Assembly (NCBI RefSeq): GCF_003367315.1
Contig: NZ_CP031415.1
Span: forward strand, 1,238,001 to 1,302,000
Direction: 5' to 3'
Source: Saccharospirillum mangrovi
GTDB lineage: Bacteria; Pseudomonadota; Gammaproteobacteria; Pseudomonadales; Natronospirillaceae
DNA: 64,000 bases
A model generated the notes under the pieces. It was not told the DNA's origin, did no database searches, and was given only the letters and a program-made list of their open reading frames with translations. Shown here piece after piece: positions 2,845-15,373 of the stretch (the stretch's first letter is position 1; every line of letters starts with the position of its first letter). The translations under genes and the position numbers were made by a program.

Positions 2845-3646
2845 ACTTGGCAACCATCGCATTGAATTACCGGGCCAGGCGCCGAAATCGACCCCCGACG
2901 ATCGCCTGTTGCTGTGGCAGGACGGCGAATTGGTCAGCCCGGATGACGACTGGGTGCAACGCCGTTCCGATTGGTCCAGCGATGCGTTAGTGGACGAGGA
3001 ATTCATCGGCCTGCTCGACGGCCATGCCTATTACACCGCCCAACTGAACGGCGCCCAAGACTTTCCCCGACTGGGTTTGCGAGACATCGGTCTGCGCAGC
3101 GAAACCGCTTTTATGTTGGCAGCGCGCGCCCGTGGTTTGCTCGACTGGCGGCGTCAGCATCGGTTTTGCGGCCAATGCGGCCAGCCGACGCAGGCGATGA
3201 CCGGTGAATCGGCCATGGTTTGCGAACCCTGCCAATTGCGGTTTTATCCGCGCGTCAGCCCCTGTGTGATTGTGTTAATCACCCGCGGGCCGGAAGTGTT
3301 GCTGGCGCAGGGCACGCGCCATCGCAGTGCGAATTGGTACAGCACGCTGGCGGGGTTTGTGGAAACCGGCGAATCGTTGGAGCAGGCGGTGCACCGCGAA
3401 ATCCGCGAGGAAGTTGGGGTGGAAGTGACCAATCTGCGCTACCAAGGCAGCCAGACCTGGCCGTTTCCGCATCAATTAATGCTGGGCTTTTGGGCCGACT
3501 ACGCTGGCGGCGACATTCGCCCGGAGCCGGGTGAAATCGCCGATGCGCGCTGGTTCCATCTCGATGAACTGCCCGAGTTCCCGCCCAGCTTCTCCATTGC
3601 CGGCTATATGATCGATTCTTACCGACGGTTCTGGGCGTCCGCCTGA
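2834..3646 (+). CDS. nudC: NAD(+) diphosphatase / RNA deNADding hydrolase
   Basis: A 270-residue NudC. The zinc ribbon is CGQCG...CEPC (residues about 111-130). It is followed by the Nudix box GFVETGESLEQAVHREIREE and then SQTWPFPHQLM, the NudC-specific motif normally SQPWPFP, here with one Pro to Thr change. NudC hydrolyses NADH to NMNH and AMP and removes NAD caps from RNA. I chose the GTG at 2834 because it gives the usual family length (E. coli 257 residues) and an N-terminus beginning LYELGNHRIELPG. It overlaps the pat stop codon, so the two are probably co-translated. The 3' end overlaps a small minus-strand ORF. Confidence 0.93.
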   Translation: MLYELGNHRIELPGQAPKSTPDDRLLLWQDGELVSPDDDWVQRRSDWSSDALVDEEFIGLLDGHAYYTAQLNGAQDFPRLGLRDIGLRSETAFMLAARARGLLDWRRQHRFCGQCGQPTQAMTGESAMVCEPCQLRFYPRVSPCVIVLITRGPEVLLAQGTRHRSANWYSTLAGFVETGESLEQAVHREIREEVGVEVTNLRYQGSQTWPFPHQLMLGFWADYAGGDIRPEPGEIADARWFHLDELPEFPPSFSIAGYMIDSYRRFWASA

Positions 3647-3762
3647 GCGTTTTGCGGATGCGCGTGAATGTCCTGGCGGACAAACCAGGCGATGCCGCCA
3701 AAAAACGCGAAGATCAAACCGACAGTGAGCAGACCGGCGATAACAACAGTGTCGAAATACAT
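3619..3762 (-). CDS. Small single-pass membrane protein (47 aa), predicted FNR-controlled
   Basis: A short reading frame of 48 codons. It encodes MYFDTVVIAGLLTVGLIFAF followed by FGGIAWFVRQDIHAHPQNAQ and a polar tail, i.e. one transmembrane helix (about residues 6-29) and a short charged C-terminus. AGGGG lies about 11 bases before the ATG. The upstream region holds two FNR boxes and a -10 element in activating geometry (listed separately), and the regulator gene anr lies directly behind them. This resembles small subunits or assembly factors of terminal oxidases in size, but it is not CcoQ or CcoS, which are elsewhere in the window. I do not recognise a family. It overlaps the nudC 3' end by 28 bases on the opposite strand. 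Confidence 0.65.
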   Translation of the reverse strand: MYFDTVVIAGLLTVGLIFAFFGGIAWFVRQDIHAHPQNAQADAQNRR

Positions 3763-3795
3763 GGTTGGTAACCCCTTGGACTGGAGGATGCGTTC

Positions 3796-3836
3796 AGTCT
3801 AGGGGCGGGGCGGGATTCGGATTTGACCTGGATCAA
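3796..3836 (-). promoter_or_regulatory. FNR/ANR-dependent promoter of the small membrane ORF
   Basis: TTGACCTGGATCAA at 3823-3836 matches the FNR consensus TTGAY-N4-ATCAA. On the minus strand a -10-like TAGACT lies at 3796-3801, its centre 31 bases from the box centre. That is the class II spacing (box centred near -41.5). Predicted transcription start is near 3789, about 27 bases before the ATG at 3762. Confidence 0.7.
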
Positions 3837-3854
3837 GGCAGTAAGGTCTGCCGA

Positions 3855-3868
3855 TTGATCCAGATCAA
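3855..3868. promoter_or_regulatory. Second, perfect FNR/ANR box
   Basis: TTGATCCAGATCAA is a perfect match to TTGAT-N4-ATCAA and is fully symmetric in its half-sites. Its centre is 32 bases from that of the first box, about three helical turns. It begins right after the anr stop codon. It may strengthen activation of the small ORF or limit it at high active-Anr levels. Confidence 0.75.
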
Positions 3869-3869
3869 T

Positions 3870-4610
3870 TCAGGCGCTGATGCCGAGTTCGAGGCGTTCG
3901 CAATCGGCCAGGGACGCCATCTGGGTCAGGGCGGTTAAATCGACGATTTCGATGTCGCGCGCGCTGTTGCTGTCGGCCAGAATGCCCTGGCGCTGGAAGC
4001 GGGTGAACACGCGGCTCACAGTCTCTACCGCCATGCCCAGATAGTTGGCGATGTCCGAACGCGCCATGGTCAGGCGGAACTGGGTGCCCGAATAACCACG
4101 CCGGCGGAAACGCGCCGCCAGGTTCAACAGGAAAGAGGCGATGCGCTCTTCCGCGCTTTTCTTGCTCAGCAGCAACATCATTTGCTGATCTTCACGCAGT
4201 TCACGGCCCATCAACCTCAGCAACTGACGCCGCAGTTCAGGCAACTGGCCCGACAGGGCATCAAGTCGATCCACCGGAATTTCGCACACGTTGGTGGTTT
4301 CCAGCGCCCGTGCAGAGGCGGGGTAGACGGGAGAGTCATAGGCGTCCAGACCGACCAGTTCGCTGGCCAGATGGAAGCCCGTGATCTGCTCGTCGCCGTC
4401 CTGAGTCAGGGTGTAGGTTTTCACCGTGCCGGTGCGCACGGCAAAGACGGAATCGAAGGGTTCGCCCTGGGCGAACAGGAGTTCCCCTTTTTTGATCGGC
4501 CGACCGCGCCGGATGATGGCATCCAGCTTGTCCATTTCACTGGTATCCAGTGACAACGGCAGGCACAAAGGGTGCAAACTGCAATTGCTGCAGTGAGTGG
4601 TCAACGACAT
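3870..4610 (-). CDS. anr: Oxygen-sensing Crp/FNR-family regulator (Anr/FNR)
   Basis: A 246-residue FNR orthologue. N-terminal cysteines C-x2-C-x5-C (HCSNCSLHPLC) plus a later cysteine in TTNVCEIPVDRL are the ligands of the oxygen-labile 4Fe-4S cluster. A cyclic-nucleotide-binding-like beta-roll follows. The C-terminal winged helix has the recognition sequence ETVSRVFTRFQ, whose E-x2-SR reads TTGAT half-sites. The longer frame begins at 4670, but ATG at 4610 is preceded by GGAG and gives the normal length. It probably activates ccoN and the small ORF downstream of it, both of which carry FNR boxes. It lies 113 bases behind ttcA. Confidence 0.95.
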   Translation of the reverse strand: MSLTTHCSNCSLHPLCLPLSLDTSEMDKLDAIIRRGRPIKKGELLFAQGEPFDSVFAVRTGTVKTYTLTQDGDEQITGFHLASELVGLDAYDSPVYPASARALETTNVCEIPVDRLDALSGQLPELRRQLLRLMGRELREDQQMMLLLSKKSAEERIASFLLNLAARFRRRGYSGTQFRLTMARSDIANYLGMAVETVSRVFTRFQRQGILADSNSARDIEIVDLTALTQMASLADCERLELGISA

Positions 4611-12138: not shown

Positions 12139-13035
12139 TTAAAGCTGACTCAGACTGTAGATGTAACCGGCGACGATGTGCACGCGCTCTTCGCCCAACA
12201 CATCGGCCCAGGCCGGCATGCGTCCGGAGCGACCGTGTTCGACGGTGTACTGCACAGAATCGCGCAACGATTCACCCGGAATGCGGTACAGCCAGGTGTT
12301 GTCGGTCAGGTTAGGTGCACCCAACGCATGGTTGCCGGTGCCATCCTGGCCGTGACAGGCCACACAACTGGCGTTGAACAGGGTCTGGCCCTGACGTGCC
12401 AGGCTGGCGTTGACGTCGTCCTGGCCGGACAACTGCATGACGTACTCAGCTACTGCCCGCACACCAGCGGCACCCAAGGCATCACCCCAGGCCGGCATCT
12501 GACCATTGCGACCGCCCAGAACGGTGGTCTTGATGGTGTCGCCAGCGCCGCCGTAGAGCCAGTCGTTGTCAGTCAGGTTGGGGAAGCCGTAGCCGCCCGT
12601 TGCGGCCTGGCCGTGACACAGCGCGCAGTTGTCTTCGAACAGACGCTGACCCACGCGCATGGCTTGCGGGTTATCTTTCAGGTCTTCGACCGGTACCGAC
12701 GCCAGGCGCTGATAGATCTCACCATAGCGACGTTCGTGTTCGATCTGATCGTTGGTTAACTGGCCACTGGAGCTCCAGTTCAACAAACCTTTCCAGTTAC
12801 CCACCGGCATGGCAATCAGATAACCCACCGCAAAGATGATGGTCGCCCAGAACAGGTTGAGCCACCACTTGGGCATGGGGTTATTGAACTCTTCAATGCC
12901 ATCGAACTGATGGCCGGTGGTTTCGCCAACACCCTCGGAGTCAGGCATGCGTCGGGTAAAGTGAATCAACGCGACGATGCCCACCAGGAAAATGGTGGTG
13001 ATACCGATAATGTAGAAACTCCAAAAGCTACTCAT
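12139..13035 (-). CDS. ccoP: cbb3 oxidase subunit III, dihaem cytochrome c CcoP
   Basis: A 298-residue protein with an N-terminal helix (IIGITTIFLVGIVALIHFT), a second helix, and two c-type haem sites, CALCHGQ and CVACHGQ, each in a cytochrome c domain. CcoP passes electrons from soluble cytochromes to CcoO and CcoN. Its start overlaps the ccoQ stop region by 4 bases. Length and domain order are standard. A GC hairpin follows the stop codon. Confidence 0.96.
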   Translation of the reverse strand: MSSFWSFYIIGITTIFLVGIVALIHFTRRMPDSEGVGETTGHQFDGIEEFNNPMPKWWLNLFWATIIFAVGYLIAMPVGNWKGLLNWSSSGQLTNDQIEHERRYGEIYQRLASVPVEDLKDNPQAMRVGQRLFEDNCALCHGQAATGGYGFPNLTDNDWLYGGAGDTIKTTVLGGRNGQMPAWGDALGAAGVRAVAEYVMQLSGQDDVNASLARQGQTLFNASCVACHGQDGTGNHALGAPNLTDNTWLYRIPGESLRDSVQYTVEHGRSGRMPAWADVLGEERVHIVAGYIYSLSQL

Positions 13036-13214
13036 CGTCTTTCCTCTTTCTTGTCCGAGGCAGCATCCATTTTTTCGTCGAGCTCGGCGAACGGCAGGTT
13101 GGCGGCGTCGTCAAAACGCGCCTTGCGCTTGCTGGAATAGGCCCAGTACACCACGCCGAAAAAGGCGATCATGGTAAAGACGGTGGCTAAACCGCGCAGC
13201 GTATTGATGTCCAT
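13032..13214 (-). CDS. ccoQ: cbb3 oxidase small subunit CcoQ
   Basis: A 60-residue single-helix protein (about residues 8-27) with the CcoQ-typical segment FFGVVYWAYSSKRKARFDDA and a charged tail rich in K, E and D. CcoQ stabilises the assembled oxidase. It lies between ccoO and ccoP as usual and overlaps ccoP by 4 bases. Confidence 0.92.
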   Translation of the reverse strand: MDINTLRGLATVFTMIAFFGVVYWAYSSKRKARFDDAANLPFAELDEKMDAASDKKEERR

Positions 13215-13225
13215 GGTGAAACCCC

Positions 13226-13831
13226 TCAGCGACCGGTCACAACAGTGCCGAGATGTTGCAGATAAGCCACCAACGCATCGATCTCGGTGGTTCCGGCAAC
13301 GGCTTCCTGAGCACCGGCGATCTGCTCGTCGGTGTACGGAACGCCAACCCGACGCAGCGCCGTCATCTTGGCAGCGGTGTGCTCACCATCCAGCGTCCGT
13401 TCGAACAACCACGGGAATGCCGGCATGTTGGATTCCGGAACGACTGAGCGCGGGTTGTACAGGTGCGCTTTGTGCCATTCGTTGCTGTAACGGCCACCGA
13501 CACGCGCCAGGTCTGGACCGGTGCGCTTGGAGCCCCACAGGAACGGATGCTCGTAGATCATTTCGCCGGCCTGTGAGTAAGGTCCGTAGCGTTCCACTTC
13601 AGCACGCAGCGGCCGCACCATCTGGGTGTGGCAGACGTGGCAGCCTTCGCGGATATAGATGTCGCGACCTTCCAATTGAACCGCGGTGTAAGGCTCCAGG
13701 CCCTCCACCGGTTTGGTTGTGTCATCGATGCGAAACAGCGGCACGATTTCAACCAGACCGCCAAAGCTGATGGCAATGACGACCAGAAAGGCCATCAAGC
13801 CAACGTTCTTTTCAATCTTTTCGTGTTGCAT
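13226..13831 (-). CDS. ccoO: cbb3 oxidase subunit II, monohaem cytochrome c CcoO
   Basis: A 201-residue membrane-anchored cytochrome c. One N-terminal helix ([20 protein letters not shown]) precedes the haem site [15 protein letters not shown] methionine-containing region further on ([11 protein letters not shown]) supplies the axial ligand. The start is ATG at 13831. It is the second gene of the ccoNOQP operon, 15 bases after ccoN and 11 before ccoQ. Confidence 0.96.
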
Positions 13832-13846
13832 CTTGAATCCTACCTA

Positions 13847-15283
13847 TCAAGCGGCCTGAGGCGCGGTTTCAGCCTGAGTGGCCTGGTCGTTGCGCACAGT
13901 GCGCCAGACGTTGTAGGCCATCAGCAGCATGCCGCTCAAGAAGGTGATACCGCCAATCAGGCGCACCACATAACCCGGCCAACTGACTTCGACACCCTGG
14001 ACGAAGCTGTACATCAGCGAACCGTCGGTGTTGACCGCACGCCACATCAAACCCTGGGCAATGCCGTTAACCCACATAGCGGCGATGTACAGAACGGTAC
14101 CGATGGTGGCTAACCAGAAATGCACGTTGATCAAGGCAACGCTGTACATCTGGGTCTGGCCGAACAGGCGTGGAATGGTGTGATAGAGCGCGCCGATGGA
14201 AATCATCGCCACCCAGCCCAACGCGCCGGAGTGAACGTGGCCGATGGTCCAGTCGGTGTTGTGCGACAGGGCGTTAACCGTCTTGATCGCCATCATCGGG
14301 CCTTCAAACGTTGCCATGCCGTAGAACGACAAAGACACCACCAGGAAACGCAGAATCGGATCGGTGCGCAGTTTGTGCCAGGCGCCGCTCATGGTCATCA
14401 TGCCGTTGATCATGCCGCCCCAGGACGGAACCAGCAGAATCACCGACATCACCATGCCCAGGTTCTGAGCCCAGTCAGGCAGCGCAGAGAAATGCAGATG
14501 GTGACCGCCGGCCCACATATAGATGGCGATCAAAGCCCAGAAGTGGACGATGGACAACCGATAGGAATACACCGGACGTTCCGCCTGCTTGGGCACGTAG
14601 TAGTACATCATGCCGAGGAAGCCGGCAGTCAGGAAAAAGCCCACCGCGTTGTGGCCGTACCACCACTGAACCATGGCGTCCATGGTGCCGGGGTACACCG
14701 AATAAGACTTAAACCAGCTCACCGGAATGGCAATGTTGTTCACCACGTGCAGCACCGCGACGGTCATAATGAACGCCAGATAAAACCAGTTGCCGACGTA
14801 AATGTGCGAGGTGCGGCGACGGTGGATGGTGCCGACGAAGACCGCCAGATACGACAACCAGACAACGGCGATCAGGATATCAATCGGCCATTCCAGTTCG
14901 GCGTACTCTTTTGTAGAGGTCAGACCCAGCGGCAGGGTAATAACGGCAGAAACAATAACCGCCTGCCATCCCCAAAAGGTGAATTTTGCCAGCCCCTCAA
15001 AGGCCAGACGGGCCTGAGTGGTGCGCTGAACGACGTAATAAGACGTTGCGAACAAAGCACAGCCGCCGAACGCAAAAATAACCGCGTTGGTGTGCAGCGG
15101 ACGCAAGCGACCAAAATGAAAATAAGGACCGAAATTTAACTCTGGAAAGGCCAGCTGAGCAGCGATAATGACACCGACCAACATACCGACAATTCCCCAG
15201 ACGACGGTCATGATGGCGAATTGACGAACAACGGTATAGTTGTACGTTTCATTCACCTCAGTAGCGGGGCTAGGATGGCTCAT
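13847..15283 (-). CDS. ccoN: cbb3-type cytochrome c oxidase subunit I CcoN
   Basis: A 478-residue haem-copper oxidase core with about twelve helices. Visible metal-ligand histidines include [31 protein letters not shown] and [12 protein letters not shown]. The enzyme reduces oxygen at low concentration and pumps protons. It heads the operon ccoN-O-Q-P. Upstream, a near-consensus FNR box lies 33 bases before a -10 element, consistent with activation by the Anr encoded 9 kb away. Confidence 0.97.
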
Positions 15284-15330: not shown

Positions 15331-15373
15331 AGTATGCTCAGCCCGTCAAGGTTTTGCAAATGACCCAAGTCAA
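15331..15373 (-). promoter_or_regulatory. FNR/ANR-dependent promoter of ccoNOQP
   Basis: On the minus strand TTGACTTGGGTCAT (15360-15373) differs from the FNR consensus at its last base only. CATACT at 15331-15336 is a suitable -10, with its centre 33 bases from the box centre, which is class II geometry. Predicted start is near 15325, giving a leader of about 42 bases to ccoN. Confidence 0.7.

Follow-up and report, generated by a model that had tools for sequence, protein, structure and literature searches.

The small minus-strand frame at 3619-3762 of the window, the 64,000-nucleotide stretch of Saccharospirillum mangrovi DNA analysed here, is, judged by its sequence, a real gene for CcoM, an already known subunit of cbb3 cytochrome c oxidase. 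We are highly confident that the locus as a whole is best explained as ccoM under an Anr-driven promoter of its own, separate from ccoNOQP. The first-pass annotation had suggested a micro-subunit or assembly factor for low-oxygen conditions, perhaps of the cbb3 oxidase encoded nearby, and the matches of the product to NCBIfam NF041600 and to PDB 5djq chain N support that proposal. A small frame is thereby named as a known oxidase subunit. The features discussed below are collected in Table 1.

Table 1. Features of the ccoM locus and of the oxidase operon in the window (positions in the 64,000-nucleotide stretch)
Feature	Position	Strand	Basis
ccoM, 47 aa, predicted single-helix cbb3 oxidase subunit	3619..3762	-	NF041600 and 5djq_N matches
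Likely ribosome-binding site AAGGGG, 9 nt 5' of the ccoM ATG	3772..3777	-	Read from sequence
Putative -10 element TAGACT (3801-3796), beginning 21 nt past the near box	3796..3801	-	Sequence; TANNNT placement kept across ccoM loci
Near FNR/Anr box, class II position, about -41.5	3823..3836	-	Motif match
Far FNR/Anr box, perfect, 32 bp upstream of the near box, about -73.5	3855..3868	-	Motif match
anr/fnr, regulator expected to bind the boxes	3870..4610	-	NF008365 Fnr, 308.8 bits (cut-off 228)
ccoNO(Q)P oxidase operon	12139..15283	-	ccoN, ccoO and ccoP above cut-offs; ccoQ read from frame
Single weaker Anr-like box TTGACTTGGGTCAT, upstream of ccoN	15360..15373	-	One mismatch to TTGAYNNNNRTCAA

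Identity and distribution of CcoM

The frame comprises 47 codons from an ATG, and its product scores 63.6 bits against NF041600, the named NCBIfam equivalog model for CcoM, a whole-protein score that exceeds the curated cut-off of 40 by 23.6 bits. The best PDB sequence match is 5djq chain N, the 36-residue CcoM of Pseudomonas stutzeri (E 1.5e-6), which aligns without gaps over residues 1-34. The two proteins share the single helix, and the window protein differs in its greater length and longer polar tail. Hydropathy supports one membrane helix, the best 19-residue stretch being residues 6-24 with a mean of 2.48. The start M-Y/F-x-D is near-invariant among 108 CcoM sequences, with D4 present in 106 and D31 in 94, and the window gene keeps both the start and D31. 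Over the first 33 codons, the window ccoM and that of genome G017, from the window's genus, differ by 13 silent changes and 6 residue changes, which is the pattern of a coding gene. By orthology, we infer that the protein is a subunit of the Saccharospirillum oxidase as well.

Short helices hold little information, and another single-helix protein might merely resemble CcoM. The CcoM model in fact gives a second, weak match (22.6 bits) in the same genome, at window positions 13143-13199 inside the likely CcoQ frame, a match also seen in G017. For the 3619-3762 product we consider such a mere resemblance extremely improbable in view of its margin over the curated cut-off, its retained start and D31, and the way in which CcoM presence tracks ccoN across genomes. 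The match at 13143-13199 was itself put down to short-helix similarity, perhaps just shared helix composition, and set aside.

Conservation in relatives had been set beforehand as a test of the frame, and it was found in 17 of 22 family genomes, 16 of which have anr within the same 2- to 3-kb locus. In the wider samples, CcoM was matched in 49 of 194 genomes of the order and in 100 of 390 in a larger order sample, and the two genomes above the CcoM cut-off in a class sample of 274 both lie within the order. One weak match outside the order (G427, 22.6 bits) was set aside.

The partnership with ccoN is close. Over three sets, 99 of 100 CcoM-positive genomes (15 + 43 + 41) have ccoN above cut-off, with E 1.6e-206 or better throughout the set of 43; the hundredth is G621, an assembly of 54% completeness in which a fragment of ccoN lies at the edge of a contig. 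CcoM was matched in none of the 42 genomes of the 194-genome sample that have no ccoN over cut-off (hypergeometric 8e-7, taking the genomes as unrelated). In genus g35, seven sampled species have neither gene, and the two with CcoM also have ccoN, a pattern that suggests joint gain or retention. In these two (L197 and L200), ccoN and ccoM lie on separate contigs. CcoM was not found in 103 of the 152 ccoN-bearing genomes of the order sample and is thus dispensable for some cbb3 oxidases. Two family members with ccoN, G001 and G014, gave no CcoM in the 16-kb stretches around ccoN and anr (best E 0.093). Genomes of family f28 (L154, L155, L206, L208 and L210) carry a second CcoM-like gene that is divergent, scores below cut-off and lacks the class II box layout; it is a possible paralogue.

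CydX/CydH-type subunits of cytochrome bd are also tiny, single-helix proteins of a low-oxygen terminal oxidase; unlike CcoM, they belong to another oxidase family, and the two are likened by description only. Work by Kohlstaedt and colleagues (mBio, 2016) on the P. stutzeri cbb3 oxidase reportedly assigns CcoM a role in assembly or stability. In the accessible portion of PMC10433244, CcoM is a 36-residue cbb3 subunit with an essential role in low-oxygen adaptation in P. stutzeri, and in that of PMC12350097 CydX is named alongside CcoM.

A predicted class II promoter at ccoM

On the gene strand, the far box is followed by the near box, TAGACT, AAGGGG and the ATG. The near box reads TTGATCCAGGTCAA on this strand, agreeing at 9 of 10 positions with TTGATNNNNATCAA and exactly with TTGAYNNNNRTCAA. 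The distance of 21 nt from the near box to TAGACT places this box at about -41.5 relative to a predicted start near 3789, so that the window ccoM shows class II geometry, with the box and the -10 element at matching distances. The first-pass annotation had described these elements, a second perfect FNR box 32 bases further and a regulator gene ending next to the boxes, and each was recovered on re-examination, the anr frame ending one base from the far box. From this layout we infer transcription from near 3789 and anaerobic induction of the window ccoM.

The same layout recurs across ccoM loci. In a first set, 46 of 61 loci have a box of at least 8/10 centred 55-90 nt before the ATG, against a mean of 1.6 and a maximum of 7 in 200 shuffles. 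Of these 46 loci, 23 have a TANNNT word that starts 21 nt past the box and 22 have it at 22 nt; each other distance between 5 and 44 nt accounts for 0 to 3. In the full set, a box of at least 7 with TANNNT at 21-22 nt was found in 94 of 107 ccoM loci (shuffles: mean 4.15, maximum 8). The 13 loci without this combination comprise 10 whose matches fall short of the family cut-off, including some second copies, and three strong matches (L171, L196 and L200). All promoter counts leave out the weak off-target matches L002, L020 and L165 and the second copy L019 in G010, and the first 61-locus set additionally leaves out L017. The survey shows that the predicted oxygen switch accompanies ccoM whatever its neighbourhood.

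Linkage to anr and to the oxidase operon

The neighbours of ccoM carry the NCBIfam names NAD diphosphatase, Fnr (Anr), TtcA, ccoN, ccoO, ccoP, ccoG and ccoS. The window ccoN scores 760.6 bits against a cut-off of 583.15, and with ccoO, ccoP, ccoG and ccoS also present, the genome encodes a cbb3 oxidase. As judged from the sequence, CcoM should belong to the product of the ccoNO(Q)P operon, 10 kb away. The separation of ccoM from ccoNOQP is shared with P. stutzeri.

The adjacency to anr leaves room for another reading of the promoter, in which anr itself is the target of the boxes and transcription of ccoM is read-through from anr. In 15 of the 16 anr-linked family genomes, ccoM indeed follows anr on the same strand, and the far box in the window abuts the anr stop codon. 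In the remaining one, the Saccharospirillum genome G016, both boxes are inverted along with ccoM between nudC and anr (locus L012), and this joint inversion indicates that the promoter belongs to ccoM. Boxes at the same position also precede ccoM in genera that have anr elsewhere. Against this evidence, read-through from anr appears very improbable, and the reading in which ccoM owns the promoter is retained.

The linkage itself is narrow. Among 80 loci found with an Anr profile, ccoM lies beside anr only in L058-L061 (two Saccharospirillum and two Reinekea); it was absent from the fetched flanks of the other 76, mostly Pseudomonas, from which the window differs in this respect. A general ccoM-anr link was rejected on this count, and the neighbourhood is a trait of the window's family, seen only there. 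The one CcoM-positive family genome without the linkage, G004, gave no Anr match. In G010, the anr-ccoM-nudC region occurs twice, 0.7 Mb apart and with the same CcoM (L017 and L019; G010:C1, about 2.81 and 3.50 Mb), which represents a duplication or an assembly error.

Upstream of ccoN, the window has the single weaker box of Table 1. No pair of boxes of at least 8 at 32 or 49-52 bp was found in 41 ccoN upstream stretches (the window and 40 others, mostly from genomes with tandem ccoM boxes), in a survey that paired boxes of 7 only with a -10 word and that weak pairs could therefore escape. Since ccoM adjoins anr only in the window's family and has its own promoter, it would be switched apart from ccoNOQP, yet in step with it.

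Spacing of the tandem boxes and the possible role of the far box

A second box (at least 8, at most 100 bp upstream) occurs in 41 of the 94 loci, compared with a mean of 5.0 and a maximum of 11 in 200 shuffles. A spacing of 32 bp is found in seven loci, namely all six Saccharospirillum examined and L028 of another family, and one of 49-52 bp in 30 loci from 16 genera and five families, all other than the window's. The remaining loci have spacings of 61-62 bp (three) or 87 bp (one). Shuffles fell within the two main classes with a mean of 0.3 and a maximum of 3, a comparison to be read with the classes named after the first loci had been seen and with related loci not independent. The window is thus of the 32-bp type, the rarer of the two, whereas Pseudomonas-family ccoM loci with a second box have it at 49-51 bp.

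Anr, like other FNR-family proteins, binds its boxes at low oxygen. In the proposed working of the promoter, a fall in oxygen would lead Anr dimers to bind both boxes. The near box, at about -41.5, would then provide ordinary class II activation of RNA polymerase, for which the geometry is in place. The far box, 32 bp upstream, a distance of about three helical turns that puts it on the same face of the DNA, may offer a second Anr contact, probably strengthening or sharpening activation. The single helix of the CcoM so produced would pack against the cbb3 oxidase encoded 10 kb away and stabilise it.

Tandem FNR sites can also repress. In the part of PMC11264516 available, an FNR site at -93.5 lowers expression of Escherichia coli yfiD, and at melR a second FNR site allowed induction at many positions and strong repression at -85 to -95. 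The window ccoM resembles yfiD, as that part describes it, in having two FNR-type sites of which the near one is class II, and differs from it in how far upstream the far site lies (about 53 bp in yfiD, 32 bp here); the window thus lacks the yfiD-type arrangement, in which about 50-53 bp separate the second site from the class II site downstream of it. The 49-52 bp class of other genera is closer to yfiD than the window is. Given a near box at about -41.5, the far site would fall at about -91 to -94 in the 49-52 bp class, inside the repressing zone, and near -73.5 in the 32-bp class, outside it. These positions predict anaerobic damping in most tandem genera and plain or stronger activation in Saccharospirillum.

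By analogy with yfiD, two Anr dimers might limit ccoM in full anaerobiosis, with a peak at low but non-zero oxygen. The repression reported for yfiD and melR and the 49-52 bp spacing of 30 of the 41 tandem ccoM promoters speak for such damping by the far box; the 32-bp spacing of the window, which puts the far site beyond the melR repressing zone, speaks against it, and we regard this role as rather unlikely. A broader proposal, offered tentatively and with somewhat less than an even chance, is that across the order a helically phased pair of Anr boxes drives ccoM but not its oxidase operon, and that the distance between the two boxes determines the oxygen window, with yfiD-like anaerobic damping at 49-52 bp and co-activation from the far site at the 32 bp of Saccharospirillum.

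If this reading of the spacing is true, oxygen would tune how much CcoM is supplied independently of the oxidase core, amounting to a regulated stoichiometry of a small subunit. If spacing matters, the ccoM promoters would also form a natural series relating the distance between FNR-family sites to the oxygen response, and the ratio of CcoM to oxidase core would appear to be regulated. The induction of cbb3 parts at low oxygen is not straightforward, as indicated by P. stutzeri proteomics in the accessible portion of PMC10433244, where aerobic cells contain more CcoN, CcoP and CcoQ than oxygen-limited (denitrifying) ones, and Anr is up.

CcoM itself is a known protein, and the tandem-box spacing of its promoters is apparently undescribed. 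A search of the open-licence literature, which gives weak evidence of absence, found no paper on a ccoM promoter with Anr or FNR. As far as the available part of PMC6588701 goes, the Anr regulon of five Pseudomonas species has 11 common boxes, none of them at ccoM.

Within the 3.69-Mb genome, ccoM is the one place where two exact TTGAYNNNNRTCAA boxes lie 16-46 bp from each other, and a control pattern gave no such place. Such places are present in 5 of the 22 family genomes, some of them away from ccoM, as at L163 (1-end; G016:C10:57239-57301), L160 and L161 (genomes G016, G007 and G012).
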